Shown: positions 1 to 57,642 of the stretch, one piece after another
Numbering within the stretch: the first letter of the stretch is position 1
Layout: every line of letters starts with the position of its first letter
DNA from: Crossaster papposus
Taxonomy: Eukaryota > Echinodermata > Asteroidea > Velatida > Solasteridae
Assembly (NCBI GenBank): GCA_037893245.1
Contig: JBAIAA010000414.1
Span: 1,898,001-1,962,000, forward strand
Direction: 5' to 3'
DNA length: 64,000 nt
Translations under genes and position numbers: made by a program
The notes under the pieces: model-generated
The model's database searches: none
Told to the model about the DNA's origin: nothing
The model's input: the letters and a program-made list of their open reading frames with translations, nothing else

Positions 1-30
1 GGGCGCGGCCAGGGCAATGCCAGAAGTTGT
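1..30. repeat. Tail of unit-1 G-rich minisatellite
   Basis: The window opens inside the end of a GCGGCCAGGGC-type array. The next bases, AGAAGTTGTGGATCTACATC, are the same boundary that ends the complete arrays near 18290, 38310 and 54427, so this is the fourth array of the family, cut by the window edge. Confidence 0.8.
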
Positions 31-179
31 GGATCTACATCTGTAGAATACTGTGGAAACTGCTTAATGGCATATCCCATACAGGAATGGTGGCCTTTAC
101 ATGTGTTTGAAGCATAAACTCCAGTTGCCTTACACCTGCCAATCACGTTGCGATAATTACACACTCGTAAACTCAACAT
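1..179 (-). other. Conserved cysteine-containing ORF leading into the Pro/Arg repeat (unit 1, cut by edge)
   Basis: Read on the minus strand, this segment is open from an ATG at 179 ([10 protein letters not shown]...) through a four-cysteine stretch (...CMGYAIKQF...[10 protein letters not shown]) and on into the PWPRP start of the minisatellite. The same reading frame is present in units 2 and 4, and with one stop codon in unit 3. Upstream on the minus strand lie TTTCAG and TTTAG words that could be splice acceptors, so this may be an exon rather than a gene start. It lies about 2.07 kb downstream of the FReD stop codon. No known domain was recognised and coding status is unproven. Confidence 0.3.
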
Positions 180-1634
180 GAACAACCTAAATAAACTGAA
201 ACAAATTAATCGTGGATTGGTTCTTGTCGCTCAGTTTATTCAACGTCATTGGTCTTTTTGTATTGGAACCATTTTTGTATCGCAATATACAAGCAAAAAG
301 TAAAATGTGCTTATTAATTAAGATTATTTGTTGCCCTCTTCCGCGATATTGATGTGGTTTTGGTAATTTTAAATTAATTTCAATTATAAGCACTTACTTA
401 AGATAACGCGCTCCAAATAATGCATAATGTCATAATTGCGATTTAGTGAAATGTTTACAAATGATTACCATATTTCTTATAATGATTACCATTATTTCGA
501 CACCCCCATAAAACCTAGTTTCAAAAACTTGATCACTAGTGAAAAATCTAACAATGCCAAGAAGCATGAAAAAGGAGAATTGATATTTTTTTTTGTTACA
601 CGAAACAACTATAAACCTTTATGTTTTAAAATTGTGCAGACAAATAATGAATAATGACATCAGAACATATACATCTGTGAAATTTAGATTCTCTTGGTTT
701 TGTGGTTTACAGTATTTTTGTGGAAAAGTATAACTAGAGTAAAACAATATGATGAATATTTTGAATATTTTCTTTATAAAGGAGTAACACTTGCCACAAA
801 TTCTAAGCTGATGTCATTCTGTGCAACATTCTATTCGTGCAATACAAATATTATCAATGCATACATGTACGAATAACACTTATTTTCTAATCTGACATTT
901 CTTGTGGAACTATAATTGAAATCCAAGTAACAAATTGTTTTCACATACGCTGTATTTATAATTTAGCAAAAACAGTTTTCACAATGTTCCGTTATATGAA
1001 CCTTATTCAAGAGAAAACCATTTTGGTTGTGTTCTCTGGATGTATCCGATAAATTGTGAATTGTTTAATGGGATGGTGCCAGACTGACTGACAGATTTTT
1101 GAATTCCAGCCTAACTTTCAATATTTGTTTGAAATGTGGTATGAAACATAAGGGAGGTTTAATCACAGGTTTTATTATTCATCAGAGACGACTGGTGTTA
1201 TTTGGTAATTAACGTTATGTCATTGCTTTTATTTGTATCTGCAAGTTAAAACAAAATGACGATTTTACCTCACTTTCAATTATTATGGCCAACTCGTGAA
1301 TACATCTCATAGTGACGGATGCTGTTCGTAGCCCTGCAATGTTGGCGAAAGTTATCCTTTAAAGGAGGATTTAACTGTAATTAAAAAAGACCATCATGCC
1401 TTTTTTATAATGTAATTGGCAGGTTGTTGTACATTATTGCGCCTATAATGTCGCTGTTAAAAAAAGGAAAATCGGATTGATAATTAACTTAGTCTAAATT
1501 CGAGGCAGCTTCGCTTGAATTCGGCTACAATTTAGCATTGCGATATGATTAAAGGTATAGCCGTTGTTTCGTGAGGTGTACAAAATATAATGGGTCTTCT
1601 TTTAAAATAAGCAAAACAAAAACCAGTTAACCTC
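180..1634. other. Conserved 3' flank of FReD unit 1
   Basis: AT-rich sequence that recurs with small differences at about 18428-19862, 38770-40267 and 54567-56031. Alignment by eye shows many substitutions and short indels of any length, as expected for non-coding DNA. Small ORFs here (for example 187-393 minus, nearly identical at 38781-38987) are explained by the duplication. No RNA gene is seen. Confidence 0.7.
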
Positions 1635-1638
1635 TTAA

Positions 1639-2058
1639 AGGTAGGATACACCATTTGCAGATATCTACCGAATTATTAAGAAATATCTTACTTATTTGAA
1701 AATAAATATTGTCTCTGAAGAAGATCTTGTTAAGATCGAAATATTAGGCCCTCATAAAAAAAATTGATAACAATTGTTTGTTAGTATCCAGCAAAACTAT
1801 GCGCTAGATATTCTGTAATTGTTCCGAAAAGTTGAATTTTATAAAAATAAATCACGATCGCCGGACGGCGATTGTGAAAAAAACAAGAACAACTGCCTGA
1901 CGCCGGTTGAAAACGAACGCCTTTTTTCTGGCTTTTCTCAGCATCAATGATTGTAAAACTTCAGACAGGTCAGTTAAACGATATTTTCTATCAAATACAA
2001 CTCCCCAAATCCACCCATTCCTGATAATTCAAGCAATTACCAATGGTGTATTCTACCT
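1639..2058. mobile_element. TTAA-flanked MITE (unit-1 copy)
   Basis: The element is bounded by TTAA at 1635-1638 and 2059-2062, with terminal inverted repeats AGGTAGGATACACCATT and AATGGTGTATTCTACCT. A TTAA target duplication is typical of the piggyBac superfamily; no transposase is encoded. Near the middle (1853-1876) is a hairpin of the form CACGATCGCCG-ga-CGGCGATTGTG. Orthologous copies sit at the same place in units 2, 3 and 4, and rearranged copies lie at 8605, 17543, 53059 and 58731. Insertion therefore preceded duplication of the unit. Confidence 0.85.
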
Positions 2059-2249
2059 TTAACGTGTTGACAAAGTGATAGTAACATTTTGATTAACTGC
2101 GAAACACATTATTCCATAGAAACATTTTGTTTGCAGTTTTATAACAATTCTAAAAGACTCTGGGTATTAATGAATAATATGGCTGTGCAATGATTTACAT
2201 GTGCCAACTAAACAAGTACATTATGAAATTAATATCAACAATGCAACAT

Positions 2250-3302
2250 TCATGGTCCAATTTCACGCGTTTTCATGCTACATGCTTTCATGGAATAACC
2301 CAATTTCCATGAGCCCCATCGCACGCCTTGAAAACGATCTGCATCCTTGTCTGGGTAATATACACCATTTAAGTGAGACGAATAACAGCTATTAAACCAC
2401 CAGGCACCTGTGGTCAGTTGTGCACAATTATTGTAGTACGCATCATTGTCACGATCCTTTGCTGTAAAGGGATATCCTTTTTGATAATAATTACTATTTC
2501 CCTGATACCCAAGAGAGTCACCGGCAGTGCTGCTAGCATCGTACTGGTCATAATTCAGATTGTACCCACCCGGGGATATTTGGAAATCTGAGTATTTTGC
2601 CCATGCCGTGCCGCCCTCCCAGTCCTCTAAATCAACTCGTAGCTCCCATGTTCCACGTGAATCATCAGACGTCAGAGTCACCAACTTGTCATTACCAAAC
2701 CAGAACTCACCGGACAGATTTCCAAAGCCAGACTGGTAGTCGGCCCAGTTACGGTAGAAGTCCACGCTGCCATCTTGTCGCCTCTGAAACACGATCCATC
2801 CCCCGCCGTCAGTTGTCATGTCACAGTAGACACGAAGACCGCAATTGCCGAATCCCTCTGGGTAGATTGTGTAGATACCGCTTGAACAATAACCGGCATC
2901 TAAGAGCATCTTGCAACTTCTGTAGCGATTCAAGGAACTATCAGCCAGTGAGTAGAGAGGTGTGTCCTTATCTGCATCAAAGTACACGCTCCCTTGAGTT
3001 GCATTGAAGTAGTCGTGATGCTGCCGTCTTGTGGCAAGGTTCAACTCGCACATTTTACTGCAGTTGTTAAAGTTAAACGACTTGCAACGTTCGTCTATGC
3101 TGCATTCTCGTCCGCAGATGACACGAGATTGCACAGTTTTTGTTGCAAACGCAAATTCTCCCAGGGCTCGATTTTCGGCGGCATAAAACGTATGTTTCTC
3201 TGTATATGAAGATGTTTCAAATGCAAAGACTGCCGAGGTAGCTCCCTCGAAAATGATGAATAATATGTGAAATAGTTCAAAACAGATGATTTGTTTTGCC
3301 AT
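2250..3302 (-). CDS. Secreted PAN/apple + fibrinogen-related domain lectin, paralogue 1
   Basis: Single-exon ORF of 350 aa. A hydrophobic N-terminus (residues 1-26) is a likely signal peptide. Residues about 37-110 form a PAN/apple-like module with cysteines at 63, 67, 73, 81 and 85 (VICGRECS...CKSFNF). Residues 128-350 are a full fibrinogen-related domain: [38 protein letters not shown], the calcium-site motif KDRDND (282-287), GAWWFNSC and LNGVYY. The four cysteines expected for the two fibrinogen disulfides are at 130/160 and 293/306. FReD proteins of this type (ficolin, tachylectin, FREP families) bind acetylated sugars; that role is inferred from the family. Versions of this gene follow at 20489, 40888 and 56599, all minus strand. 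Residues 139 and 154 are extra cysteines (GYCSSG, GNCGL), unusual against paralogue 2. Confidence 0.9.
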   Translation of the reverse strand: MAKQIICFELFHILFIIFEGATSAVFAFETSSYTEKHTFYAAENRALGEFAFATKTVQSRVICGRECSIDERCKSFNFNNCSKMCELNLATRRQHHDYFNATQGSVYFDADKDTPLYSLADSSLNRYRSCKMLLDAGYCSSGIYTIYPEGFGNCGLRVYCDMTTDGGGWIVFQRRQDGSVDFYRNWADYQSGFGNLSGEFWFGNDKLVTLTSDDSRGTWELRVDLEDWEGGTAWAKYSDFQISPGGYNLNYDQYDASSTAGDSLGYQGNSNYYQKGYPFTAKDRDNDAYYNNCAQLTTGAWWFNSCYSSHLNGVYYPDKDADRFQGVRWGSWKLGYSMKACSMKTREIGP

Positions 3303-4295
3303 CCTGTCGATCGAGTTAAGGCCACGTTATATAACAGAAGATTTCAGTTTTTGGTTATGCTGCCAATTGCATTCAGCGATTTACCATAGGATTTCAACAA
3401 CGTTTGTGAAAAGACTACAATTTCAAGGCAGACTGTTACCCGTAGATGTCTTCTTGGCACAACTGCCAGATTGCTCTCAGAGGCCTGGTGATGCTGGGAC
3501 TTGGTAGTTTACAGAAAGGAATGGAGCGACGCAGACACAAACTGTGGCGATATTGATTTAGTTTCAGTATGAGATTTAGATGGTATTGTTTACGAGGGGC
3601 AATTTTTTTGTTACTATGCCAACTCAAGCTTACAAGCGTTATTTAGCGATACAAATAATCCAATGAGGGTTCTTTACCGCCACTGTAGCTTTAGAAATGA
3701 CGACACGAACAGTCCAGGGCATGAGGGTATTGATTTGGTACCAGTGAATCCGATGAGATCGGGTGGGGAGAATTCGCTGGTTACCATGCCAACTTCTACT
3801 GAAGGCCGAAAGCTTAACGGTGAACAATTACCAAACTTGAATTGACAGCCTGAAACTAAGTCAAGAATATTGTGAGTTAAGTTGCGTTTACAAAAATCCC
3901 AATTATTTTGTACTCATTAATTTAAGTCTTTGTTGTGACCGAGTTTTTTTTTGTTAAGCGTGTCTTCTTTACACCACTGGTTTGCTCTAGTGACAGAGGT
4001 CTGTCGATGATGGGGTTTTATAATTTACAGAAAGCATTGATGGTGAGGCAGACGATGTGTATCTCTCTGATTGGTTACCACAGTTAATACGTCATTTCAG
4101 ATTAGTGGCTGGTAGCCCCTGATTGGCGGAGGTTTTTTAAAGCTCGTTACCTAATCGAATAAACGTAAGTTGCAGACCATTGGTGTCTGGTCTTCTTTTT
4201 AATTAAAATGTCGTCAAACGGAATGCACCACCGTATAAATAAAGGCACCGACAAATATGAGGTAGCGTATACGTTCATAACCGAGCAATTAGCCA
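3303..4295. other. 5' flank of FReD 1 with internal duplications
   Basis: Upstream sequence of gene 1. A TTATATAA word at 3328-3335 lies just before the start codon. The block CAGAGG-CTGGTGATG...TTTACAGAAAG occurs twice (about 3478 and 3997), and the GATATTGATTTAGTTYCAG...TTACTATGCCAACT block also occurs twice (about 3550 and 3725). The second block returns upstream of other units at 22175 and 36280. The CTCTCTGATTGG (inverse CCAAT) block shared with units 2 and 3 is at about 4063-4074. ORFs in this stretch are not conserved in frame between copies, so I treat it as non-coding. Confidence 0.5.
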
Positions 4296-4311
4296 TTGAC
4301 CCTGAGTTATT

Positions 4312-4653
4312 GACCCTGAGTTAAATCTGAATAACATCTTGTACACAGACTTGCTCACACAGCTTGGCACCGTTGAACTTTAAATACTCCAGACCAAAGA
4401 CACTGTTGCCATATCACAAGATTCGGGGCAAGCTCTTGCATAATTACGTAACAGGCGTTCAGCACCAATACATTGTTCACATTGGGTGAGAAAGACACCA
4501 GACCATTCCGGAGCTGGGGGTTGCTAGCAAGGCTTGCCCCGAATCACGTGATATAGCAACAGTTTCTTCAGTCTAGAGAATTTAAATTCAAAATGTCCCA
4601 AGCTGTGTGAGCAAGTCAGTGTACCAGATGTAATTTAAATTTAACTCGGGGTC
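4312..4653. mobile_element. Foldback (long inverted repeat) element
   Basis: The two halves are inverted copies. GACCCTGAGTTAAAT near 4312 pairs with ATTTAACTCGGGGTC ending at 4653; GACTTGCTCACACAGCTTGG pairs with CCAAGCTGTGTGAGCAAGTC; the inner arms match around TTGCCATATCACAAGATTCGGGGCAAG and its complement. Arms are about 130 bp with a short spacer and no ORF. This is typical of a foldback MITE. Confidence 0.65.
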
Positions 4654-5757
4654 ACTCGCAAATGTCTAATTTTACGCTGGTTGGTTTCATTCTCAAATGT
4701 AATAAGCAATTCAAGGCAATTCAATCGTTCCAACAATAAGCGGCTTTACAAATATCCTTTACAAAACTGTAGCTTGACAAAATACATGTATCCCAACTCT
4801 TGTAATTATTATCGACGTTTTCAGTGATGGAGATGATCCGAGGAGGAGTCTTTACCGTCAGTATAGCTTCAGAAATGATTAATTTCAGTGAACTGACAGC
4901 CTGGAATTAAATATAGTCACGAATATTGTGAGTTGCTTTCACACACACAAAATATTCTTTTGTACTAATTGTAACCGAGTAGTGGTTTGGTAACAATACA
5001 ATTTTAAGTAAACCAGGAAACAGAAGGGGTCGAGACAAAAGTGTAGAGTGTTCTTCAAGTGCGGATTATTATATTTAGTACGAATAATCTCTCGGGCAAT
5101 ATACCCAAAATTTCCGATATATTAAAAACAAACGACAGCCAAAGGTGTCTGCAAATAAGAAAAGAGAATATAAATACTATAGGTTTCCCCGGACGATATC
5201 GAAAAATGAGCACATTAATTTGTACAAGATGCATTCATTTTCGTGCGAAATAGTATAAACGTTCCCAATCCTGTTTTCTATTTAAAAATTGATAATTCTA
5301 TTTCCATGAAGATGCATTCAGTCGTAAAACATCAGCGTACGACTTCCTGAATGTGCACTGAATTTAGTATCGATAATTCATTTTAGCGCGAATTCGAATG
5401 TACACCCGCCATCATGTGTTTCTTCTAGTTTATAAACAATCGATTTCGCTAATGCAGCCGATTTCCTGCGCATGTCTATCAAGCATTGGAATTCATTTAG
5501 GTGTTAACTAAATTAACATTATGGGGAACCGAACCAGGGACCAATTTTATGGAGCTTCTATGCACAACAATTTGCGTAGCACAAACATGTCTGGCTCAGC
5601 GTGAATCCGGTTACCACCAAAAACGTCATGTGCTGTTCATGCTAAGCAATAACCTGCCGAATATCAGTCACAAACCAAATACATCACCGGAATGTTTAGT
5701 TAGTATCCATGTTTTTGCAAAGAAAGAATTTCCATGCTTAGCAACTTTTTAGGGCTC
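4654..5757. other. Intergenic, no gene recognised
   Basis: AT-rich. Around 4841-4960 is a further degraded copy of the unit 5'-flank block (AGGAGGAGTCTTTACCGTCAG... and GACAGCCTGGAATTAAA...). Nothing else is supported; the 83-aa ORF at 5501-5752 has no recognisable features. Confidence 0.4.
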
Positions 5758-6300
5758 CAGCAGCCGATTTCACGAAAAAGTGCGTAGCTTGCGCTATTTT
5801 CAAAAGTGGCGTAAGGCTTACGCAACAAAAAAGTTGCATAGCTGCGCCATTTCCTTACGCATCATTTCACGAAACTTGGCGTAGCTGCGCAATGTACCGA
5901 TTTATCACTACAGTAAAAGAAAGTTGCGGACGAGGCTAAAATTTCCTCAAAGCACAAAGGTCACGACACACGCAATGAACTACCCCGTTTTCTAAACTCT
6001 AGTTAGTTTCCATTACGGCTCCATCACTATTGCTAAACTACATGAACGAAGCCAATTGGGACGAAGCTCAATTTTGGAACACGACTATGCAGTTTACACG
6101 CATAAATGTGCATGCAGCAAAGCAGACGATCTACGCGAAATTTTGGCGGGTAAGTTTTCTTCACTTTTTTGGCTGTTTTGTGCTGCGGAATTTGTTTAGT
6201 GTACTAGGCCTAGTAAAGCAGTGTAGTACTCTATATAGTGTATGTAGAGTCTAGTTGTAGGCTTAGATATGTGGTCTGTGCTACAGTATTAATAACTACG

Positions 6301-7871
6301 ATGGCTTCGCAGCTAGTAAAAACATCACACACAAAAAATACCACCGGTAGAAACGTGAATTGGTCAACAGAAGAAATAAAAATATTGTCTGAGTATGTCA
6401 AAGCTCAAAGTGCACGAGAACTGTTTGGATGTAGCGGTAAGGGGAGGAGAGCACCAGCCAACATAAAGAAAATCAAAAAGGCACATTGGCAACAGGCGAC
6501 TCGACTGCTTTTGGAGAGTGGGGGGCCAGTAAGAAATTGGCAAAAAGTCCGGAAAAAGTGGGGAGAGCTGGCCAGCAAAGCACGGAAGTATCGAAGGGAG
6601 CAATCGAAGACAGGTAGTACGGTAGTACAGTATTATTAGATCGGGTTTTTTTTATTTTTTACAATCTCTACGGATATCTAGAGTACTACTATACACACAC
6701 ACACAAAAAAAACACAACAAAATTAAATACATAAGTTTCTTTTTGTTTTTTGCATAGGTCCGAGGCAGGCTAGAGCCTAGTGTCAGAAGGCAAGGCCAGG
6801 GTGCACCTAAATATTATATATTTTTTAAATTGTATATTTAACTGATACTGATAGGCTATAGGCCTAAATGATATTTTTATTTTCCTGACCCAACCGCACA
6901 CTAGGGCCTACATCACATGCGAAGATATATGCTCCTCCTGCGTGCATCGATTGAGTCCGACTCTAGCGATAAAGTCTGTAAAATATCAGTGGTATTTGTG
7001 CTTTGGTAAAAAGAAATCCAACCTATTAAAGAGACTGTATTCAACATGACAAATTTCTCTATGTCGCCGATAGCCTTTTTCTATTTTCACCGTGGCTATT
7101 CTTACGTGACCTTGCTCGTGACGTGTTTATTCATCATCTGTTTTGAGTTTCGTGAAAAATGTTGCCAATATATTAGCTCTCCGGCATAAGCTGGTGAATA
7201 AAAACGACTGATGATTCCAGCTGAACTCCACAATCGCCATTAACACAATCATCAGACCAAGTCTGGCAAGACATCAAAGGCTGTTTACTTCATGCTCATA
7301 TTTTGTGAACCAATGCGCCACAGTGATGCTATATCTACCATGAATAATCTAATCTTTTTTTTATTTAGGTGGTGGTGAGAAACCCAAAGAAGACCCCACT
7401 CTGGAATGGGTATTGGATACACTGGCACCGTCCTCTAAAGATGGAGTTGTTGCCAGGGGAAAGGGAGAGTCTGTGCCACAGCTTGACGACGATGACGATG
7501 ACGATGAGGACGAGGACGAGGACGAAGATAACGAAGATAACGAAGATGGAGATGGGGGGGTTTCAGAATTAGATAATGTGGGAGATAATTTTGACGATGG
7601 GAGTGTGGAGGGTCAGGTAGGTGACACTCCATCATGTTCATCAGCCCTCCCAACAATGTCTAAGACCGATAACTCGCTAAAGAAACAGCCTGTTTTGGCA
7701 TCGGTCTTTGACATAGAGATGGAGCGACTGCAAGTAGAAAAGCAACAGCTGGAGGTTGCACAAAACATACAGTGCAGCTTAGCAGATATCAATGTTACCA
7801 TGCGAATGATGCTAGCTGTCATTTGCAATCAACAGAATGTTAGAGTTGTTGGCGAAAATGACCAGCAGTAA
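6301..7871 (+). CDS. Harbinger-associated Myb/SANT-like DNA-binding protein (2 exons)
   Basis: Exon 1 is 6301-6613 and exon 2 is 7369-7871, joined at ACAG|gt...ag|GTGG, which keeps frame (816 nt, 271 aa). The N-terminal part (about residues 19-100) is a Myb/SANT-like domain with the tryptophans of the family: NVNWSTEEIKILSEYV, then HWQQ, then NWQKVRKKWGELASKARKY. The middle holds a strongly acidic run of Asp/Glu, and the C-terminus (VFDIEMERLQVEKQQLEVAQNI) is a coiled-coil-like helix. In PIF/Harbinger elements this second protein binds the ends and brings the transposase into the nucleus; that role is known for the family and inferred here. ATG 6301 is the first ATG in frame. Confidence 0.85.
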
Positions 7872-8335: not shown

Positions 8336-8604
8336 TAAAATGGTATATGGTGTCATTATTGGCCTATATGATAAACCCCCAGAACTGATTTGTGTGTAAT
8401 TTGGATCGTTAGTTTTTGAGATATGGGTCAGTGAACAAAGTATTTACAGTTTGAGGGTCATACTAATTAGTCCAAAGTTCACTGACCTGTATCTCCACAA
8501 CAAACCATCCAAATTATTAGTACTACAAATTATACAAAAAACTTGTTCTAAGGGTTTCTCATAATTATAGGCCAATCATAACACCAAATACTATTTAAAT
8601 ACTA
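8336..8604. mobile_element. Foldback MITE inside Harbinger
   Basis: The left half (TGGTGTCATTATTGGCCTAT ... GAGATATGGGTCAGTGAAC) and the right half (GTTCACTGACCTGTATCTCC ... TAGGCCAATCATAACACCA) are inverted copies with arms of roughly 120 bp. No ORF is present. Confidence 0.6.
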
Positions 8605-8901
8605 CCGAATTATTGGGAAATATTAAACTCATTTGAAAGTAAATAATGATTCTAGGCATCCAGCAAAATGATTGCGCTAGATATTCTGTAATTATCTTCG
8701 AAAAAACAAAGATTACATAGTAATAACTGCCCGAAGCCGGTTAAAAACGAACGCGGTTTTTCGTGCTTTTCTCGGCATTCGTGATTGTAAAACTTTGAAC
8801 AGGTCAGTTAAACGATATTTACTATAAAATACAACCCCCCAAATCTACCCATTCATAATAATTCAAGCAATTACCAATGGTGTAAAAACTGTATCTTACC
8901 T
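8605..8901. mobile_element. TTAA MITE, left end missing
   Basis: Matches the interior and right end of the MITE in the FReD units (ACCGAATTATT..., CATCCAGCAAAA, GTCAGTTAAACGATATT, CAAGCAATTACCAATGGTGTA...TACCT) and ends at TTAA 8902-8905. The left terminal repeat and central hairpin are missing. Confidence 0.7.
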
Positions 8902-9161
8902 TTAATATTAGCTCTCACTTTAGCAAGCAAATGATACATTCTTGCGGATGTTTGCATACAGCAATCCGGGGTAATTCCAAATATGGTATCTATTACATAT
9001 TCATGAATCCTGTCATATGGTACCACACTAACAATCAGTGACAGCAAAAATGACAAAAGGTCGCCGTGTGGTTGTTTGTGCACACGCTGCAAGACTAGAG
9101 TAATCTTTTCTAAGCGCTCTGATTGGATGAATGACGTCTCATGAATAATGAATAATGACAT
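8902..9161 (-). other. Unrecognised ORF truncated by a MITE
   Basis: On the minus strand 9161-8902 is open for about 86 codons (MSLFIIHETSFIQSERLEKI...). The sequence looks protein-like, with leucine-rich and amphipathic stretches (DLLSFLLSLIVSVVPYDRI). The MITE at 8605-8901 lies at its downstream end and supplies the next bases AGGTAAG, which read like a splice donor. It lies downstream of the HARBI1 stop. No family was recognised; it could be a chance ORF. Confidence 0.2.
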
Positions 9162-9524: not shown

Positions 9525-12285
9525 TTAGATATTTGTGAAGTGCATGTTAATCAGTTGGTTTCTGAAGATGCGCCCATCATTAATTGGGCCTACATATGGG
9601 GGGACATGAACCTCATCCTCGTCTACAATCTCACCATCAATTTCAGGCTCTCCAAAACGTTTGGCCATGTTGTGCAAGACCCCACATGCAAGTATAATTT
9701 TACTTGCTCGTTTTGGACTTACCCTCAGACCAATAACCAAGCACGGAAAGCGTCGCTTCAACTGGCCAAACATCTGCTCAACAATAACACGAGTGCGCTT
9801 GTGGCTGTTGTTGAAACGGCGCTCTCCAGGCGTTTGAGGGTTAAGGAAGGGTGTCATGAGCCATGGTCTAAGGGCGTATCCGGTGTCGCCAAGTAGCACA
9901 CCATTGAGCCTGCAATAGGAACAAACATTAAAATTTTATTCTCTAGAGTTGTCTTATTTTCAGAGCTCACTTCAACATCATTACTGAGGTGGCATCATGC
10001 CCATGCACAGGCTAAATGCATTTTAAAGTTGAGGTGCACATTCAGTGCTTTCACGAAATGCTATCACATAAGCTCTAGGTAATTTCTTATAATTCTGCTA
10101 GTTTTTGTCAATGTATTTGTAAAGCCAAGTCAAGAAGCATGCTTTTTGTTTTATACAAACCTCCTGTTTTCAAACATATCACCAATCACACTGGCCTGAA
10201 GTATCGCACTGTCATGTGTGCTGCCTGGCCATCTCGCCACGATGTTTGTAATCATATATGTTGCACTACAAATCATCTGAATGTTCATGCTGTGGTAGCC
10301 CTTTCGATTTACAAACACGTGTTCTTCCTCACCCATAGGTGCACCGTACAGGCGCACATGTGTGCAATCAACTGCACCGACAATACCTAAACGTGAAAGT
10401 TTTTTAAAAAAACATTATTATTTTCAGGCTGGTTAGTATTAAAACATTAGGCAATTTTTATTGTTTCATGTGGCAAATTAATCAACAATTTCTGGTTTTT
10501 TTTAGGCAAAACTTAAATTTGTCATTTGAAACATAATTATGCGTAGCAGTTTGCAAAACATTTAGTTCTCTTGTTAATTTGCTACGCTTCATTTGTGAAG
10601 TTAAGAATGTACTCTGACAACCCTGAAGTGAGTGTTATTAGAAAATTGGTACATGTATGTAGAAGCAATAGACAAAGTTAAATACATGTACATGTACAGC
10701 AACAATAATACATTGTTGAATTGTTAGGATTTTTTTCTCTGTAAAAGCACAAAGTGTAGTACATGTACATGTAAATGCAAAGGTCCATGTTGACTTGAGA
10801 GCTGAAGGCAAGGGATACATTTTAGTGGCAGATGATGGAATAAGAACAAAAGAAAATAATTGCAATTTACATTGAATATTACCTGGAAACCCGGCTCTCT
10901 GGTAAAAATCATGTTTTGTCTTTGCCACATCTCTGGCTTGCGTGGGAAATTGGATGTCATCAACCTTATCTGCCAGTGCCCTTGATACTTTGTGGACTAT
11001 GCGGCATACTGATGGTATTGATACTCCATGCAAGTCACCATGGACTGAATAGAAAGACCCTGTCGCATAGAACCTGAGAGCAGCCAGTAATTGCAGACAT
11101 GGTGATATTGGGTTACTGCGCTGTAAATTTAGAAGAACAAAAATCCATCCATTTCTGTACCTACCAATTTGTAAATAGAAGTATTTGTAACATCAAATTT
11201 ACTTTACCTCCTGAAATATTTAAGTAATTTTTCCTTTAGGTTTATATTCTATTGATGAAACAGTCTTTTTAACTTATTGTAAATTTATTTAACTTTTCGT
11301 ACATTTATTTAACTTATTGTACATTTATTTAACTTATTGTACATTTATTTAACTTATTGTACATTTATTTAACTTATTGTACATTTATTTAACTTATTAA
11401 AATAAATGTTAATAAATGAGACATTTATGTGGCTTAAAAACTGAAAATAGTATACCATTTCAGTCTGTTGTTTTTGGGAACGGGGGATTAAATATTGTTT
11501 ATATTGTAATCTGTCCTGAAAGATAACAAAAACACCTCCGACCCCACTCATAATAATTGGCAAACTGCCTTCCCGAATATCTTTGTTGGCCTAATAATGT
11601 TGTAATAATTTCCTATCAATGTTCATGTCTTACAAAAGCACTATATGATTTTACAAAATAAACTTTTTCCCATGATGGAAGAAAGTAGAGAAAGTCGACA
11701 TGTGAACTGTTTTCCTCATTAAACCCCAACTTCTAGGCGCCTACGCCCCCGAAATATTATTGAACGAATATTAGCAAGTAAACAAAGAGGGGGGTGTTGA
11801 CGACAAGCGCCTTAAGATAACAAAAGGTGGGCTATCAATGTCTGGCAACTAGGCCTACAGGCGGATGGGGGCGCTGTTTAAACGTAAAGCCTTAAAACTT
11901 GGGAAAAAAGGAGGGTACGAAACGACGTACATGTTATGTACACGTACGGGACCCCACAAGACTACATAGAATTGGCATTTGAAGTGGCTGGGGGCGCCCT
12001 TGGTATTCGGTACCGGTAAATTAAAATAAATTAGTAGTGTATCGTCATTGGCATATAGGCCTAGACTGAAAATTACTCAATTACCCGTGTCTCGTGTTCT
12101 AAGACGTGTTGCAGCTCTTCCTGTATTTGATAAATCCCCTCCCGTGTAAATCTGTAACGGGCACGAATTTCTTGATCAGTGAGTGTGTCAAGGGGATTGT
12201 TTCGATCCCGAAACAACCGTTCTCGGCGAAGTGCTCTCCGATTTTCTCGTTCAGCGAGCAATAGCAACGCCATTTTTATGCACAA
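9525..12285 (-). CDS. HARBI1-like: HARBI1-like PIF/Harbinger transposase (4 exons)
   Basis: Exons on the minus strand are 12285-12085, 11120-10883, 10386-10161 and 9909-9525. Every junction is GT-AG and in frame; the joined length is 1050 nt, or 349 aa, the usual HARBI1 size. Exon 1 carries the helical N-terminus (TDQEIRARYRFTREGIYQI); exon 2 the helix-turn-helix-like HGVSIPSVCRIVHKVSRALAD; exon 3 the first two catalytic aspartates (GAVDCTHVRLYGAP and WPGSTHDSAI); exon 4 LGDTGY and the catalytic glutamate in RVIVEQMFGQLKRRFPCL. The DDE triad is therefore complete. The protein cuts and rejoins DNA at the element ends together with the Myb-like partner. Intron 1 contains a 20-bp minisatellite. 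No stop or frameshift was found. Confidence 0.9.
11281..11400. repeat. 20-bp minisatellite in HARBI1 intron 1
   Basis: Six head-to-tail copies of ACATTTATTTAACTTATTGT, the first with several differences and the last diverging at its end. Confidence 0.9.
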
Positions 12286-13310: not shown

Positions 13311-13313
13311 TTG

Positions 13314-13749
13314 GGGTGCGTTCCACTTACGCGAACTGTTTGCGCGAACGTTCGCCTGCGTTTTGAGTTGGCGTTAGTTGAAGTGGAACGATATTTAAAA
13401 AAATACGTTTTCAAAATGGCGGCGCCCGGTGACAGTGACGTCGTTTGGTTGGCTGCTTTTTGTCCAACTCATTATTTTTTGTTAAAGATCCCTGTGACTG
13501 CTCAAAACAACCCACCGTTTATAACGAAAAGTATGAAACGTAAATCAAAACGGTAAAAAGAAAACCGTCGGCTGCTAACTTCTCCGCCATCTTTAAAATA
13601 CGTCACTGGCCAACAGCGAACAGCTCGAAATGCCGTTCGCCGTTTTCGCTAACGTTTGCCAACATAATTGGCCAACATTGCGTTCCACTCACGCTAACAA
13701 CGCTAACGTTGGCCAACGTTGGCAACGTTCGCTTGAGCGGAACGCACCC
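13314..13749. mobile_element. MITE with GGGTGCGTTCC ends, copy A
   Basis: Inverted ends GGGTGCGTTCCACTTACGC and the complement, with TTG on both sides (13311-13313, 13750-13752). A closely similar copy of nearly the same length lies at 27263-27699. The 3-bp target duplication suggests a Harbinger-type MITE. The interior is rich in AACGTT/GCGAACGTTCGC words and carries CAAAATGGCGGCGCCCGG. Confidence 0.85.
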
Positions 13750-14105
13750 TTGGTGAGTAGCATTTGGAATGCAACTTTCACGTGAAGTTCACGGTACGCG
13801 GTGAACACGATAAACACGACGCTATATTGGAACGCGGCACATAACGCACGCGCACTGCGCCCTCTCTCTGAACAGTGTGGTTTTTTTTAACTAGAGAGGG
13901 CGTGAACTGATTTTCAGTCCGCACGCGCTAGCGCTATGCCCACCGACGTCGTCTGCTTTGCTCAAAGGCTTTTGGCGGCAAAACAAGTCACACATTTAGG
14001 CATATATTCTGAAAATGAAGATTTGACGTAGGCTTAGGTTTGACGTAAGCTGAGGTTTGACGTAAGTATTGTTTGTAAAGTAAATCATTTGTTTGTAGCC
14101 TATAC

Positions 14106-14857
14106 CAGGGGGGGGGGGGGGGGGGGGGGGCGGAGGGGGGGCCCAAGAAAGTGCGCCACCAACGTTGAAATGTATCTCATTCGTTCTTCCACGCTCATGA
14201 GCCACACATCTCACACAGTAAATACGTATGATCGCTACCGCGAAGCGCACCATTGAAACACGTACAGATTTGCTCCGTGTATCGCTCTCTGCATTTAGTG
14301 ATTCATACAACGTCCGCAAAGCCAGGTACGCAGGCACGATCTACACGGATTTTGTTTGGGGCGATGTCATTTTCTGCCATTTTCGTTCGAAAACAACACG
14401 ATAAAACGCAAGGGGGTCACAGGCAGATTTTTTAAAAATTCAGTATATCACTGCTACATCCTTTTTTAACGTATCCATGGAAAAAAATGAGTGGGGTCAA
14501 AGCACGATTTTTCACAATTTATCGATTATTATTGCCCTTTTTAGGGGAGGTATTTGTTAACGTCGTTTGAGTATTTGTGCATAATCTCCACGCGCATCAA
14601 CGGTACGTCAACGCTTAATTTTTTCGACTGCTTTTTTCATTTTCAATACAATTTTTGCCATTGGATGATAAACATTAAGGTAAATAACAACCTTGTACAA
14701 CTACAAAAGACAAGATGTTAAGATTGGATGCCAAAAACTCTTTATTTTTCGAGTGAGAAAATTGTTCCCCCCTAATTTAGAATGGACGGTACCACAGCGT
14801 TTCGCAATCACAGCCTCGAAGGGCCCCCCCGCCGCACCCCCCCCCCCCCCCCCCCCT
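14106..14857. mobile_element. Non-autonomous hAT element with expanded G/C termini
   Basis: The ends are CAGGGGG... and ...CCCCCTG, and the 8-bp flanks GCCTATAC (14098-14105 and 14858-14865) are identical. An 8-bp target duplication with CAGGG/CCCTG ends is typical of hAT. The terminal G and C runs are unusually long (over 20 bases at the left end). No transposase is present. Confidence 0.85.
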
Positions 14858-17538: not shown

Positions 17539-17542
17539 TTAA

Positions 17543-46215: not shown

Positions 46216-47545
46216 TGGCCCCACAACTTACTTTCATTGCCATTAATAATTTATCCTTAGCTTTAAACCTTCACAATGCATTTTCCTACCGTTTTTATTT
46301 GGTAGGCCTACTGGGACATCGCATTAGCGCAACATGGGTAGTCGTAAAAACATGGAACGTTTCGGAACTATTTTTGTTCTAACAAAACGATGGTTCGCTA
46401 AAAGTAAGCATAGCATTTTTGATTTTAGGTTAAACCAAAAACAAAATTGACTATGGTAAATTTAATTTTCTAAAAACTCACTTCAGCGGCCGTCAATAAA
46501 AACAAGCTGTAAACAAGTGTAAATAAATGCAGAGTTTTAACTTTCAGTGGAGTTTTAAATGGTAACTTGATCAGACGAAACCCTTCAGTACTCAATACAC
46601 GCCAATTGTGATTTGTAAATCTATATTGAATGTGAGACGGCAACTATGTCAGGTTTATTCCGAAATTTAAAATAAAATAACAAGTGGCGTCTGGCTATTG
46701 GGAACAAAATCGGCCGGATACGTGTTCGTCCCTAAGCTGAGTGCGCCACGTTGGGGATTATCAAGAGCAAAAGCAACTTAACACTTAACACAAAAACAAC
46801 CTAACACAACAAAAAAGTCCTTAGAGGATATAAAACCATCTCAAATCAAAGAAGTAGTCTATTTTAAAGAATATTACTGATAATTATAAGTTAAAAAAAT
46901 ATGTACAATATTTATATATAGACAGAAACTTAACATAAATATTGACAAGCCGACACTGTACGTCGCATTGTTTCTTTGATAACAATGCCACTATACAACC
47001 ATCCTTGTTTTGGGTGACCCTATTTCAGGCTTTATTAGTTTTTTTAGATCGATGATCTAAATGGGGCTAGAATTCCGTCTCCATGACAATCTGCTGTTTT
47101 GCGCTAAGTTCCCGCAGTCAATACTTGGCGAAGGGCCAAGAAGTTTCCCGCGCAAGGTACCGGTTGAAGTTGTGGACGGCTGTTTACTGCGCAAGTAGTG
47201 ACACTGATTCTGAAACATCCAAACTGGCGCTGGGCTGCTCGTCAATGTTCCTACATGGAACGCAGTCAACTTCCTTTAATTTTACCTCTTGTCGACAATT
47301 AATTGTTGCAGGACAACAATTAATTAAAACGAATTAAGAGTTTACTTCAGCGCTTAACGTATATTCAGAATCTCACAGACCGATGAGGTTATCAGCTTAC
47401 GATAAAACATCAGCCAATCAAAGGGTACGGTTTGTAACTGCGGGAATACAGACCAAATACTACTCATTGACGTAAATTACGTACTCACTTGAATAATCCT
47501 TCAGAGAGAAAGAGAGATACACGCCGTCTGCCTCATAGTCATAGC

Positions 47546-51200: not shown

Positions 51201-53057
51201 AAACGGGTTTTTCGAGGCCTAATTTCACCCCTTTGTTCCATTCCCTTGCTCTGACAAGATGGATTTTTGAATTTGCAGTGGTTCAATTTATGTGTATGGG
51301 AATATTCATTCTGTTCCCCGTCAGGTACCACCAGGCAACACGAAAAACGGGGACGTAACACGGCCTACCATGCTTTGAGAAGTTTCATAGTCTGTAATGA
51401 GCATTCACCTGAGCACGTTTTATATTTGAGTTGGGGGGGGGGGGGGGGGGGGGGGGGTGGGGGGGCGCCTTCATTTGAATTTTTAACTGCATCCATATTG
51501 TACCCATTTTGTATGTTTGTGCAATTCGGGCGATTCACAATGAAGTGCGCCACCAAGCGTTTGACTCAAAAGAGCCACTTTTAAACTTTACGGTCGACTT
51601 CTTCCGTATATCATACTGTAGTGAAATATCTATTCTTCATTGTTCACGCGAGGTTTAACACAAACGAAAATGTATCCGGCAGCGTCGTTAATTAAAACAT
51701 TGTTATTTGCAGAACAAAAAATAAAACTTTAATCGTGCGCGTCCAAAAAGACGTAAAAACTGATGAGTTCATGCAAAATGAATACTGTTTTTAAAACCGA
51801 TGCCGACTTTTCCCCATGATGCACTGCGGGGATAGCAGGATTTGCGCCTCCAATGGCAGCTTCTAGTTATTGTGAATCGCTCGAATTACCTTCATAGTCC
51901 GGATTTCCTTCATTTTGAATAAAATCTAATGAAGTATCTAAGTAAAATTTAAGTATTTTCAAAGAAAGACTTGAAATTTTCTCACTCTTCATGTTTCTTC
52001 ATCAGAATTACACTTCTTGTCAAGTCATATAAAGGGCAAAAAAGTGGGGGTGAGATATGGAATTCTTTCCACCCCTTCCAAAAAAACTTCCCACAGGCCA
52101 ATAATATTAATCTAATAGTCATTGCTTTGGGGGTACTGTCAATTCATTATGATTCAACACAACTTCAAAGAAGAGTGGCCTTTCATTACTTTGCCTTGCG
52201 AGGGCGCTATACACTAAAACTTGGCAAAAGGTGCTTGGTCACTAACTGGTCATATCATGTATATTACTGTGGTAACCTAAGCATAGCAATATGCCTTGGT
52301 ACTGAAAGGGATAACGGTATTAATAATAATGATAACTAACCACAGGGAACAGGGAGTGCACCCTCGATCTTTATTTACCCCTTTTCCTAGATTTTTATTT
52401 CACTTCCTTGTGACCTCCAAAATCTCTGTCTAAAACCCTCTCCAAAAGACTGTTTTCGTTGCGTGATCACCTCTTTGACCAAGTCTCAATTTATCATGGT
52501 TTTTAGATTAGTGGAATATTTACATGTACGTGTACAGTCGGCTCTCGTTTGTACAGACCCAGCCAGATCTGGACAAAATAAATGCACAGTCTGTTTTGTT
52601 ATTGTTCATGTGTATTTCTGTTTTAATGTCGTTGTTAGTTTTGCCAAAAAATGAAGTAAATAAAAATATAAATGGATGCCGATAAAAAAATAATATCAAA
52701 AAGAATGGAAAACAGCGTTCGTTTTATATTTATGTTATTTTTGCGTTTGCCGTCCGAATTAAGATAAAGACTAGCTATATAGACTGGTGCTTCAAAGGGC
52801 TCGTGTTATTTTAAACATAAACGAGTCGGGGTACGATGCCGTGAAGATAATTGTTCCCAATGCCGCACACGTATCACGTTGATCGGGCTCAAAATGTTCC
52901 TTTTATTTCTTGGAAATAGCAGGTCATGTGCTAATGCAAATTCACAGGCAGCCTTACAATGTAAGTACTTCCTACCAAACAGGGAATTTCAGCTGCCAAC
53001 AAAAATGGCACCGATGACAAAGTAAAAATAGAATGTCACGTAAACGTTAATGTTATA
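48226..53057. other. Long intergenic stretch, no gene recognised
   Basis: AT-rich. 48566-48690 (TTTTAGGGGGCTAGACCCTT...GCACGTGACGTCAACTTC...) is a dispersed repeat found inverted at about 58912-59040. A G run lies at 51433-51465. The longest ORF (51971-52339 plus, 122 codons) has no recognisable features. No splice-linked ORFs or RNA genes were identified. Confidence 0.4.
51433..51465. repeat. Poly-G tract
   Basis: A run of over 20 G, broken by one T, then more G. Possible G-quadruplex. Unlike the 14106 element, no 8-bp duplication or opposite C-run end was found. Confidence 0.85.
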
Positions 53058-53058
53058 A

Positions 53059-53394
53059 AGGTAGAATACACCAGTGGTAATTGGTGTTATTATCATGAAT
53101 GGGTGGATTTGGGAGGTTGTATTTTATAGTAAATATCGTTTAATTGATCTGTTTGAAATTTTACAATCATGGATGCCCAGGAAAGCAAGACAAACGACGT
53201 TTGTTTTAAACCAGCGTCGGGCAGTGGTTCTTATGTTGTTCTTGTTGTTTTTTTCACGATCGCCGTAACAATTATAACATATCTAGCGCAATCATTTTGC
53301 TGGATGCCTACTATAATTATTTACTTTAAAAAAAGAAAGATATTTCTTAATAATTCGGTAGTGAAAAGTGTCGATATCTGCAAATGGTGTATCC
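53059..53394. mobile_element. TTAA MITE, inverted, abutting the unit-4 array
   Basis: AGGTAGAATACACC at the left; interior in the orientation opposite to the unit copies (TATTTTATAGTAAATATCGTTTAA, CACGATCGCCG, ATATCTAGCGCAATC). Ends CAAATGGTGTATCC directly against GGCGCGGCCAGGGC of the array. The last bases of the terminal repeat are lost at the junction. Confidence 0.75.
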
Positions 53395-54426
53395 GGCGCG
53401 GCCAGGGCGCGGACAGGGCGCGGACAGGGCGCGGCCAGGGCGCGGTCAGGGCGCGGCTAGGGCGCGGCTAGGGCGAGGTCCAGGGAGAGGTCCAGGGAGA
53501 GGTCCAGGGCGAGGTCCAGGGCGCGATCAGGGCGCGGCTAGAGCGAGGTCCAGGGCGAGGTCCAGGGCGCGGCCAGGGCGCGGGCAGGCCGAGGTCCAGG
53601 GCGAGGTCCAGTGCGAGGTCCAGGGCGAGGTCCAGGGCGAGGTCCAGGGCGCGGCCAGGGCGCAGCCAGGGCGCGGCCAGGGGGAGATCCAGGGGGAGAT
53701 CCAGGGCGAGGTCCAGGGCGAGGTCCAGGGCGAAGTCCAGGGCGCGGCCAGGGCGCGGCCAGGGCGAGATCCAGGGCGAAATCCAGGGCGAGATCCAGGG
53801 CGAGGTCCAGGGCGAGGTCCAGGGCGAGATCCAGGGCGAGGTCCAGGGGGAAGTCCAGGGCGAGGTCCAGGGCGAGGTCCAGGGCGAGGTCCAGGGCGAG
53901 GTCCAGGGCGAGGTCCAGGACGAGGTCCAGGGCGCGTCCAGGGCGCGGCCAGGGCGCGGCTAGGGCGAGGTCCAGGGCGAGGTCCAGGGCGAGGTCCAGG
54001 GCGCGGCCTAGGGCGAGGTCCAGGGCGAGGTCCAGGGCGAGGTCCAGGACGAGGTCCAGGGCGCGGCCAGGGCGCGGCCAGGGCGAGGTTCAGGGCGAGG
54101 TCCCGGGCGCGGCCAGGGCGCGGCCAGGGCGAGGTCCAGGGCGAGGTCCGGGCGAAATCCAGGGCGCGTCCATGGCGCGGCCAGGGCGCGGCTAGGGCGA
54201 GGTCCAGGTCGAGGTCCAGGGCGCGGCCTAGGGCGAGGTCCAGAGCGAGGTCCTGGACGAAGTCCAGGGCGCGGCCAGGGCGCGGCCAGGGCGAGGTTCA
54301 GGGCGAGGTCCAGGGCGCGGCCAGGGCGCGGCCATGGCGAGGTCCAGGGCGAGGTCAAGGGCGAGATCCAGGGCGAAGGCCAGGGCGCGGCCAGGGCGAG
54401 GTCCAGGGTGCGTCCAGGGCGCTGTC
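53395..54426. repeat. Mixed 11/12-bp minisatellite (unit 4)
   Basis: Interleaved GCGGCCAGGGC (11 bp) and GAGGTCCAGGGC (12 bp) units with many point variants, ending at the conserved AGAAGTTGTGG boundary. The 11-bp units shift frame, so no single frame encodes a uniform repeat through the array. Confidence 0.95.
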
Positions 54427-54566
54427 AGAAGTTGTGGATCTACATCTGTAGAATACTGTGCATACTCCTTAATTGCATATCCCATACAAGGACAGGTGTT
54501 TGAAGCGTAAATTGCCTTACACCTGCCAATCACGCTGAGATAATTACACGCTCGTAAACTCAACAC
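54427..54566 (-). other. Conserved cysteine ORF (unit 4)
   Basis: Minus-strand reading [23 protein letters not shown] then [20 protein letters not shown], open into the array as in units 1 and 2. The ATG of units 1 and 2 is GTG here. If real it is more likely an exon than a first exon. A 6-nt in-frame difference separates it from unit 2. Confidence 0.3.
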
Positions 54567-56598
54567 GAACAACCTAAATAAACTGAAACAAATTAATCGT
54601 GGATTGGTTCTTGTCGCTCAGTTTATTCAACGTCATTGGTCTTTTTGTTTTGGAACCATATTTGTATCGCAATATACAAGCAAAAAGTAAAATGTGCTTA
54701 TTAATTAAGATAATTTTTTGCCCTCTTCTGCGATATTGATGTGGTTTTGGTAATTTTAAATTAATTTAAATTATAAGCACTTACTTAAGATAACGCGCTC
54801 CAAATAATGCATAATGTCATAATTGCGATTTAGTGAAATGTTTACAAATGATTACCATATTTCTTATAATGATTACCATTATTTCGACACCCCCATAAAA
54901 CCGAGTTTCAAAAACTTGATCACCAGTGAAAAAATCTAACAATGCCAAGAAGCATGAAAAAAGAGAATTTTAATTTTTTTTTAATTTGTTTTTTGTTACA
55001 CGAAACAACTATAAACCTTTATGATTTAAAATTGTGCAGACAAATAATGAATAATGACATCAGAACAAATACATCTGTGAAATTTAGATTCTCTTGGTTT
55101 TGTGCTGTACAGTATTTTTGTGGGAAATTATAACTGGAGTAAAACAATATGATGAATATTTTGAATATTTTTTTATAAGAGGAATAACACTTGCCACCAA
55201 TTCTAAGCTGATGTCATTTTGTGCAACATTCTATTCGTGCAATACAAATATTATTAATGCATACATGTACGAATAACACTTATTTTCTAAGCTGACATTA
55301 CTTGTGGAACTATAATTGAAATCCAAGTAACAAATTATTTTCACATACGCTGTATTTATAATTTAGCAAGAACAGTTTTCACAATGTTCCGTTATATGAA
55401 CCTTATTCAAGAGAAAACCATTTTGGTTGTGTTCCCTGAATGTATCCGATAAATTGTGAATTGTTTAATAGGATGGTGCCAGACTATTTTTGAATTCTAG
55501 CCTCACTTTCAATATCTTTTTAAGGTATGTTTAATCACAAATGTTTTATTATTCATCAGAGACGACTGGTGTTATTTGGTAATTAACTTTATGTCATTGT
55601 TTTCATTTCTATCTGCAAGTTAAAACAAAATGACGATTTTACCTCACTTTCAATGTATTATGGCCGACTCGTGAATAAATCTCATAGTGACGGATGCTGT
55701 TCGTAGCCCTGCAATGTTGGCGAAAGTTATCCTTTAAAGGAGAATTTAACTTCAAATTCGAAAAGACCACCATGCCTTTTGTTATAATGTAATCGGCAGG
55801 TTGTTGTACATAATGGGTGAACCCGTGTGTGTGTGATTGCGCCTATAATGTCGCTGTTAAAAAAAGAAAAATCGGACTGAAAATAAACTTAGTCTAAATT
55901 CGAGGCAGCTTCGGTTAAACTCTGCTACAATTTAGCATTGCGATATGATCAAATGTAGCCGTTGTTTCGTCAAATGTACAAAATATAATGGGTATTCTTT
56001 ATAATAAGCAAAACAAAAACTAGTTAACCTCTTAAAGGTAGAATACACCATTTGCAGATATCTACCGAATTATTAAGAAATATCATACTTATTTGAAAAT
56101 AAATATTGTCTATAAAGAAGATCTTTTTAAGATCCCTCTTAACTCATTTGATAAATATTGTTTGTTAGCATCCAGCAAAACGATGCGCTAGATATCCTGT
56201 AATTGTTTCGAAAAATTGAATTTTATAAAAATAAATCACAACTGCCTAACGCAGATTGAAAATGAACGCCGTTTTTCTGGCTTTTCTCAGCATCTATGAT
56301 TGTAAAACTTCAGACAGGTCAGTTAAACGATAATTTCTATCAAATACAACTCCCCAAATCCACCCATTCCTGATAATTCAAGCAATTACCAATGGTGTAA
56401 TCTACCTTAAACATGTTGACAAAGTGATAGTAACCTTTAGATTAACTGCGAAACACATTATTCCATAGAAACATTTGTTGGCCGTTTTATAACACTTCTA
56501 AAAGACTCAGGATATTAATGAATAATATGGCTGTGCAATGATTTACAGGTGCCAACTAAAACAAGTACATTTCAAAATTAATATCAACAATGCAACAT
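54567..56598. other. Conserved 3' flank of FReD unit 4
   Basis: Homologous to 187-2249, with the TTAA MITE at 56036-56407. No gene or RNA recognised. Confidence 0.65.
56036..56407. mobile_element. TTAA MITE (unit-4 copy), hairpin deleted
   Basis: Left TTAA at 56032-56035; right end CTACCT followed by TAAA. About 50 bp shorter than the others because the central hairpin segment is missing. Confidence 0.8.
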
Positions 56599-57642
56599 TC
56601 ATGGTTCAATTTCACGCGTTTTCATGCTACATGCTTTCATGGAATAACCCCTTTTCCATGAGACCCATCGCACGCCTTTGTAACTATCTGCATTCTTGTC
56701 TGGGTGATATACACCATTTAAGTGAGAATAGAAACAGCTATTAAACCACCAGGCTCCTGTGTACGTTTGTGCACAATTGTTCTGTGTCGCATCATTGTCA
56801 CGATCCTTTGTTGAAAAGGGATGTCCTTTTTGATACGTGTTCATACTATTCCCCTGATACCCAAGAGAGTCGCCGGCAGTGCTGCTGGCATCGTAATGGT
56901 CATAATTCAGATTGTACCCACCCGGAGATATTTGGAAATCAAAGTATTTTGCCCATGCCGTGTTGCCCTCCCAGTCCTCTAAATCAACTCGTAGCTCCCA
57001 TGTTCCACGTAAATCGTCGGACGTCAGAGTCACCAAGTTGTCATTACCCAACCAGAACTCACCAGACAGATTTCCAAAGCCAGACTGGTAGTCGGTCCAG
57101 TTACGGTAGAAGTCCACGCTGCCATCTTGTCGCCTCTGAAAAACGACCCATCCCCCGCCGTCAGTTTCCATGTCACAGTAGACACGAAGATTGCAATTAC
57201 CAAATCCCTCTGGGTAGATTGTGTAGATACCGCTTGAACGATAACCAGCATCTAAGAGCATCTTGCAACTTCTGTAGCGATTCAAGGAACTATCAGCCAG
57301 TGAGTAGAGAGGTGTGTCCTCATCTGCATCAAAATACACGCTCCCTTGAGTTGCATTGAAGTAGTCGGGATATTCTCGTCTTGTGGCAAGGTTCAACTCG
57401 CACATTTTACTGCAGTTGTTAAAGTTAAACGACTTGCAACGTTCATCCATGCTACATTCCCGTCCGCAGATGACACGAGATCGCACAGTTTTGGTTGTAT
57501 ATGCAAAACCTGGCAGTGCGTGATTTTCTGCAGCATACATGATTTGTTGATGTGAATAACAAAGATGCCCATAAACAAAAATTACGATTGCTAACAATAT
57601 CAGCAATTCAAAGGCGTTGATAACAAAGTTAAGTTTTGCCAT
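56599..57642 (-). CDS. PAN/apple + fibrinogen-related domain lectin, paralogue 4
   Basis: Single-exon ORF of 347 aa from ATG 57642. I chose this start because MAKLNF aligns with the MAK starts of the paralogues; an in-frame ATG at 57702 would add 20 residues. The hydrophobic segment (ELLILLAIVIFVYG) is longer and more apolar than in the other copies and could be a signal peptide or a membrane anchor. The PAN-like module has [18 protein letters not shown] and CSKMCELN. The FReD is complete: [36 protein letters not shown] (calcium site), TGAWWFNSC, LNGVYHPDKN, SMKACSMKTREIEP. The N-terminal exon part and the 5' flank are unlike units 1-3, so this copy has a different promoter region. Confidence 0.9.
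   Translation of the reverse strand: MAKLNFVINAFELLILLAIVIFVYGHLCYSHQQIMYAAENHALPGFAYTTKTVRSRVICGRECSMDERCKSFNFNNCSKMCELNLATRREYPDYFNATQGSVYFDADEDTPLYSLADSSLNRYRSCKMLLDAGYRSSGIYTIYPEGFGNCNLRVYCDMETDGGGWVVFQRRQDGSVDFYRNWTDYQSGFGNLSGEFWLGNDNLVTLTSDDLRGTWELRVDLEDWEGNTAWAKYFDFQISPGGYNLNYDHYDASSTAGDSLGYQGNSMNTYQKGHPFSTKDRDNDATQNNCAQTYTGAWWFNSCFYSHLNGVYHPDKNADSYKGVRWVSWKRGYSMKACSMKTREIEP

Follow-up and report, generated by a model that had tools for sequence, protein, structure and literature searches.

Apparent gene conversion among four PAN-fibrinogen lectin-type genes near G-rich minisatellites in the sea star Crossaster papposus

Results

Four genes with PAN and fibrinogen-related domains

The 64,000-nucleotide stretch analysed here, called the window below, comes from the sea star Crossaster papposus (GenBank assembly GCA_037893245.1, contig JBAIAA010000414.1, positions 1,898,001 to 1,962,000 of the forward strand). 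This 64-kb window holds four single-exon open reading frames (ORFs), all on the minus strand, that encode a PAN_1 domain together with a fibrinogen-related domain (FReD; Pfam Fibrinogen_C), as well as arrays of a G-rich 12-bp repeat. A first-pass annotation, made from the letters alone, had proposed the four genes, and profile searches judged against curated cut-offs bear it out: all four proteins match both PF00147 Fibrinogen_C (151.4-228.1 bits, cut-off 22; partial in G2, which is frameshifted) and PF00024 PAN_1 (28.4-34.9 bits, cut-off 21.4).

G1, 2250-3302, minus strand: PAN_1 + Fibrinogen_C, single exon, 350 aa, intact
G2, 20490-21536, minus strand: PAN_1 + Fibrinogen_C, frameshifted in the FReD; ORF 20682-21536, 284 aa
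G3, 40888-41955, minus strand: PAN_1 + Fibrinogen_C, 355 aa, intact
G4, 56599-57642, minus strand: PAN_1 + Fibrinogen_C, 347 aa, intact, N-terminus diverged

Frame 0 of G2 ends after 284 codons and its remaining FReD lies in another frame; the ORF of G4 spans 56599-57702, with the family-consistent ATG at 57642. A tblastn search of the window with G1 and G4 as queries, at E values up to 1, returned only these four places and no fifth PAN+FReD locus.

The FReDs of G3 and G4 match the solved structures of MFAP4, ficolins, FIBCD1, angiopoietins and tachylectin-5A, the best PDB matches over this domain being MFAP4 for G4 (5.8e-56) and ficolin-1 for G3 (1.1e-50). A DRDND stretch that aligns to the FReDs of ficolin and MFAP4, and that presumably has a calcium role, is kept in G1, G3 and G4; together with the residues around NCA and SC in the C-terminal part of the domain, it corresponds to what we take to be the calcium and ligand sites of ficolins. 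In these genes the Cys of the SC/NC motif is followed by Tyr or Phe, in contrast to the His of ficolin and MFAP4 (five alignments). Pfam listings at E values up to 0.01 contained only PAN_1 and Fibrinogen_C, with no immunoglobulin superfamily (IgSF) domain in any of the four proteins, and neither Pfam nor inspection of the translations found a collagen-like region before the FReD, where the PAN domain stands in place of the collagen-like part of ficolin. The predicted products would be secreted, ficolin-type lectins with a PAN/apple domain.

Three arrays with a common boundary and different internal states

Three arrays of the 12-mer GAGGTCCAGGGC lie within the window, and the edge of another is just visible at its left end.

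Unit 1 array edge, 1-18, plus strand: right edge only, rest of the array off the window
Array A2, 17773-18264 (or to 18276), plus strand: 41 exact GAGGTCCAGGGC 12-mers, then 11-mer-type units at the shared boundary
Array A3, 37125-38310, plus strand: about 96 variant 12-mers (95.9 copies at 37133-38282 by Tandem Repeats Finder, TRF), long-range block structure
Array A4, 53395-54427, plus strand: about 88 copies (87.7 at 53402-54421 by TRF), mixed 11-mers and 12-mers

The pairing of every gene with its own array, as first described, thus stands for three of the four genes; for the first, about 18 array-like bases are all that the window contains. The boundary sequence AGAAGTTGTGGATCTACATCTGTAGAATACT was recovered at the right edges of all four units, and the sharp differences in array state described earlier were likewise reproduced: 41 exact units in A2, variants with a block structure in A3 (peaks in the autocorrelation at offsets near 850-910 bp) and a mixture of 11- and 12-mers in A4. 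From stop codon to array edge the distance is 2232 bp for G1, 2207 bp for G2 (to a downstream stop in another frame), 2578 bp for G3 and 2172 bp for G4, all calculated from hand-entered coordinates. The window has 96 exact 12-mers, whereas 100 shuffles gave 0, and outside the three arrays it contains no copy with up to 1 mismatch.

Exact GAGGTCCAGGGC copies in A2, A3 and A4 number 41, 28 and 27, or 41, 27 and 23 by a unit parser; the two parsers disagree by a few units. The main 12-mer aside, most repeat variants occur in a single array. GAGGTCCCGGGC occurs 0, 23 and 1 times in A2, A3 and A4 (24 in A3 by the other parser) and GAGGTCGAGGGC 0, 15 and 0 times (17 in A3). The variants that are common to arrays are the 11-mer GCGGCCAGGGC, which occurs at the right edges of unit 1 and A2, within A3 and in many copies in A4, the variant GAGGTTCAGGGC, with 2 copies each in A3 and A4, and the single GAGGTCCCGGGC in A4. 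Since its 41 units are perfect, A2 was probably amplified recently. All three arrays contain simple quadruplex-type patterns.

Since the 12-mer has no stop, several frames stay open through the arrays and long ORFs run across them; we reject a coding reading. R-loops formed by read-through from the genes are not favoured either: judging from the strands, the G-rich strand would be the template and the RNA therefore C-rich.

The shared unit runs from the array edge into the gene

Self-comparison by blastn delimits a shared unit that starts at the array edge, extends for about 3.2 kb and ends in the 5' part of the gene, with 89-91% identity when gaps are counted; in gap-free columns the units are 6-8% diverged.

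Unit 1 (U1), 1-3302: array edge to gene 5' end
Unit 2 (U2), 18261-21998: likeness to unit 3 extends about 460 bp upstream of the gene
Unit 3 (U3), 38289-42464: 300 bp insertion at 38464-38763
Unit 4 (U4), 54406-57537: similarity stops inside the coding sequence

An initial local-alignment scoring proved too lax (score no higher than the largest null in 6 of 9 comparisons) and was replaced for the comparisons of flanks. In the 1.5 kb to the left of the three arrays, no homology was detected but for a repeat that resembles a miniature inverted-repeat transposable element (MITE), shared by U2 and U4 (71% over 220 columns); the U2-U3 and U3-U4 scores were within the null. On the other side, the 5' flanks of U2 and U3 are 92% identical over 457 ungapped columns (81.7% with gaps counted), with weaker patches beyond, the sequence upstream of U1 matches U2 and U3 in shorter patches only (about 68-93%), and that upstream of U4 has no homology to the other units above the null. 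At a TRF score of 50 or more, the four genes had no array in common on their 5' sides. Some promoter-side segments of G1 seem to be partly duplicated in tandem within 3303-4960, upstream of the gene.

Divergence changes within one reading frame

Four sequences from one haplotype underlie all the divergence and tree tests. In the five gene pairs other than G2-G3, synonymous divergence (pS) is 0.36-0.66 over the N-terminus with its signal peptide and 0.25-0.37 over the PAN domain, and drops to 0.09-0.11 over the linker and the N-terminal part of the FReD (FReD-N). The difference from FReD-N is significant in these pairs for N-terminus and PAN together (Fisher P 0.0023 to 3e-06) and for PAN by itself (P 0.0003-0.023), and the steep change falls inside one uninterrupted ORF. 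The G2-G3 pair has a pS of 0.11 over the N-terminus, 0.12 over PAN and 0.11 over linker and FReD-N. In the C-terminal part of the domain (FReD-C), the intact genes give pS values of 0.12, 0.18 and 0.07, and the pairs that include G2, which has only about 15 codons left there, give 0.31-0.47. The alignment of U4 has the same form at the coding 5' end, departing from the others in the signal peptide and early PAN domain and being nearly identical further in. Mean pairwise divergence of the noncoding 3' flank is 0.029-0.076 per bin, mostly below that of the coding bins, which lies at 0.055-0.119 away from the 5' end.

The units also conflict over their relationships. The 54 sites that split them two by two (U1 170-3302) are clustered by the tree they support (24 runs, P 0.0003), with 15 consecutive sites for (U1,U4)(U2,U3) at the distal end. 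Segment 2991-3302 (300 columns) supports that tree, the others having P values of 0.032 and 0.033 in the approximately unbiased (AU) test; the same tree is rejected in 170-2990 (AU P 0.022) and in 1221-1640 (0.021). Within 170-2990, a Sawyer-type statistic for the clustering of shared polymorphic sites was reached by 0 of 3000 shuffles globally, and its pairwise form was significant at 0.05 in 5 of 6 pairs.

A signal of gene conversion, which the first-pass annotation had suspected, is thus present in the pS change within one ORF, the tree conflict and the clustered shared sites, and we infer gene conversion as the process behind it. Several results weigh against this interpretation. The sequences are only four, from a single haplotype; in four of the seven segments all trees survive the AU test, whose values are uncorrected; the pairwise Sawyer-type statistic is not significant for U2-U3 (P 0.12), nor are the runs of informative-site topologies within 170-2990 (P 0.24). 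Because pS rises again at codons 241-280 (0.18-0.33) and is higher in FReD-C than in FReD-N for G1-G2 (P 0.009, 15 codons), homogenisation would not be uniform. The 150 bp that adjoin the array are somewhat more diverged (0.076) than the bins that follow (0.051, 0.067, 0.029). Finally, a near-simultaneous spread of a 3.2 kb cassette, with later replacement of 5' parts, could also give a star-like tree. The tests are not unanimous, and on balance they point to old paralogues whose 3' parts have become homogenised.

Variable codons in the C-terminal part of the FReD

Among the three intact genes, amino-acid-variable codons make up 26/85 of FReD-C and 21/141 of FReD-N (P 0.007), and the ratio of variable to synonymous-only codons is 26:3 in FReD-C and 21:13 in FReD-N (P 0.019); synonymous-only codons by themselves do not differ between the two parts (P 0.27). 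The ratio of nonsynonymous to synonymous divergence (dN/dS) of FReD-C exceeds 1 in two of the three pairs (1.06 and 1.73; the third 0.65), on small counts. Since the border between the two parts was chosen during the analysis, we treat possible diversifying selection on FReD-C as a lead only.

Spacers and other repeats

The spacers between the units, of 10-15 kb, are largely but not wholly unshared, as self-comparison found the following pieces in common.

13313-13755 and 27262-27705, direct: 444 bp, 92%
42232-43154 and 47535-46593, inverted: 954 bp, 87%
21782-21998 and 47522-47305, inverted: 218 bp, 86%
22403-22923 and 43563-44036, direct: 73%
22557-23118 and 46057-45574, inverted: 72%
43668-43984 and 46103-45799, inverted: 81%

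The region 45574-47535, between units 3 and 4, contains inverted copies of sequence upstream of G2 and G3, and tblastn detected no FReD gene in it. This inverted copy at about 45.6-47.5 kb speaks for an older rearrangement that would have included the upstream side, and not for a clean tandem repeat of one long unit.

The MITE-like element has one copy in each of the four units and four copies in other places; its terminus is AAAGGTAGGATACACCATT, and many ends adjoin TTAA (by eye). Copies outside the units and beside the arrays include these.

17541-17759, minus strand: broken near the centre, ends 13 bp before A2
53056-53394, minus strand: reaches the left edge of A4, about 9 bp short of the expected terminus (by eye)
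8602-8903 and 58752-59067: other places outside the units

The copies at A2 and A4 are broken at different points, and the left edge of A3 has no MITE-like copy, all of this being a post hoc observation on three arrays.

Several other repeats lie in the window. Between units 2 and 3, 24132-33824 contains several tandem copies of a repeat of about 1.4-1.5 kb, about 80-99% identical, with pieces of 19-bp and 23-bp minisatellites inside it. Units 1 and 2 are separated by a spacer in which 6238-6639 and 9525-9899 have Myb/SANT-like and DDE_Tnp_4 matches, presumably what is left of a PIF/Harbinger-type transposon. The plus strand has long runs of G, or G-rich tracts, at 14108-14141, 51433-51465, 58733-58757 and 59379-59467, and further tandem repeats, including units of 134, 37 and 46 bp, occur at 60900-61222 and 62963-63722 at the right end.

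Discussion

We consider it probable that old paralogues are clustered at this locus and that most of each gene and about 2.2 kb of 3' flank have been homogenised by ectopic gene conversion, with the array as a boundary or bystander. The four lectin genes would probably be old duplicates. Ectopic conversion would keep most of each gene, and its 3' flank up to the minisatellite, alike; it would not reach the promoter side, the signal peptide or the beginning of the PAN domain. The minisatellite marks the 3' limit of detectable homology and would turn over through slippage or duplication within itself. Its variants are mostly private, the noncoding flank has no significant gradient and the coding minimum lies away from it, so we regard the arrays mainly as independently evolving repeats at the end of the homogenised stretch, probably passive and not the engine of exchange.

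The first-pass annotation had given the arrays the active part, as exchange hotspots: breaks in the G-rich repeat would start conversion into the gene, and the family would expand by unequal crossing-over. The homogenised segment does end in the array in the three units where this is visible, A2 is a perfect and probably recently amplified 41-mer, all three arrays have quadruplex-type patterns, and noncoding and third-codon divergence taken together rises with distance from the array (0 of 5000 shuffles). However, that slope is due to the 5' end of the gene once third codon positions are included; in the noncoding flank alone it is 0.0054 per kb and not significant (P 0.19, or 0.42 once the bases beside the array are counted in), a figure that serves as a proxy for conversion and comes from four sequences. 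Coding pS has its minimum at about codons 121-190, in mid-FReD, and not next to the array. Unequal crossing-over between arrays fares no better, with few variants common to the arrays and with spacers of 10-15 kb that share few pieces, some of them inverted. We therefore regard a hotspot role as unlikely. An extended form, in which G-rich minisatellites would drive recurrent conversion that homogenises the lectin frame, selection would keep FReD-C variable and array state would tune the rate of change of each copy, so that the locus would be one of germline diversification, seems to us very doubtful.

Copying of gene and array as one mobile cassette into four places, by dispersed segmental duplication or carried by an element, would explain a similarity that is bounded by the array to the left and ends close to the gene start to the right, with spacers that differ; the single-exon genes, the MITE-like copies that reach or nearly reach two of the three arrays from the left and the inverted piece of the unit 3 upstream region that lies without a gene at 46593-47535 would fit as well. 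Yet U2-U3 homology passes the gene by at least 460 bp and continues in patches, U1 keeps promoter-side patches, and divergence steps across the coding sequence rather than at a single breakpoint, all of which makes a cassette quite unlikely. The mosaic might also come from collapsed or misjoined copies in the assembly, and the frameshift in G2 and the incorrect assembly of Sp185/333 genes blamed on a similar repeat structure (in the excerpts of PMC5103432) give that some weight; since the units are 6-8% diverged and their spacers and arrays differ, collapse is unlikely, and we hold an artefact to be highly improbable.

The closest precedent for homogenised genes that end at a tandem repeat is, by analogy, the repeat-bounded arrangement of the Sp185/333 (SpTransformer) immune genes of Strongylocentrotus purpuratus, which the locus resembles. 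There too, as far as the excerpts of the two papers go, genes of one family are clustered and alike through their flanks, and similarity drops sharply beyond the flanking microsatellites (PMC3091723); the repeats are discussed in two roles, as favouring duplication or as stopping conversion from spreading (PMC3091723), segmental duplications are edged by repeats and gene repertoires were not shared among 10 individuals (PMC5103432), and gene conversion with repeat-mediated instability was proposed (PMC3091723, PMC5103432). The differences are considerable. The drop at a tandem repeat is seen here on the 3' side only, at the three arrays in the window, and the repeat is a 12-bp minisatellite, whereas the excerpts describe GA/GAT microsatellites, with GA on both sides of each Sp185/333 gene; the gene family is another one, of single-exon FReD genes set apart by 10-15 kb of largely unshared spacer.

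The proteins can be compared with the molluscan FREPs and FReDs, which share the FReD family, the combination of PAN/Apple with FReD and single-exon genes: according to the excerpts of PMC7588048, a 1-IgSF FREP gene of Biomphalaria glabrata and some Lottia FReDs combine the two domains, some FREPs have a single exon, and gene conversion is given as one source of variants in snails. Molluscan FREPs also carry IgSF domains, unlike G1-G4, and these excerpts describe no pairing of FREPs with a repeat array. Ficolins, MFAP4 and FIBCD1 resemble the proteins in the FReD itself, the region of the best PDB matches. A literature search limited to titles and abstract openings of open-licence papers found no FReD cluster paired with minisatellites.

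If our interpretation is right, the idea that exchange among immune-type genes of invertebrates has its limits at tandem repeats would gain a second gene family, unrelated to the first. The locus also provides a testable layout, in which three array states stand beside flanks that differ little, all within 64 kb, and an array that acts as a boundary rather than a driver would itself limit the idea that such repeats are hotspots.

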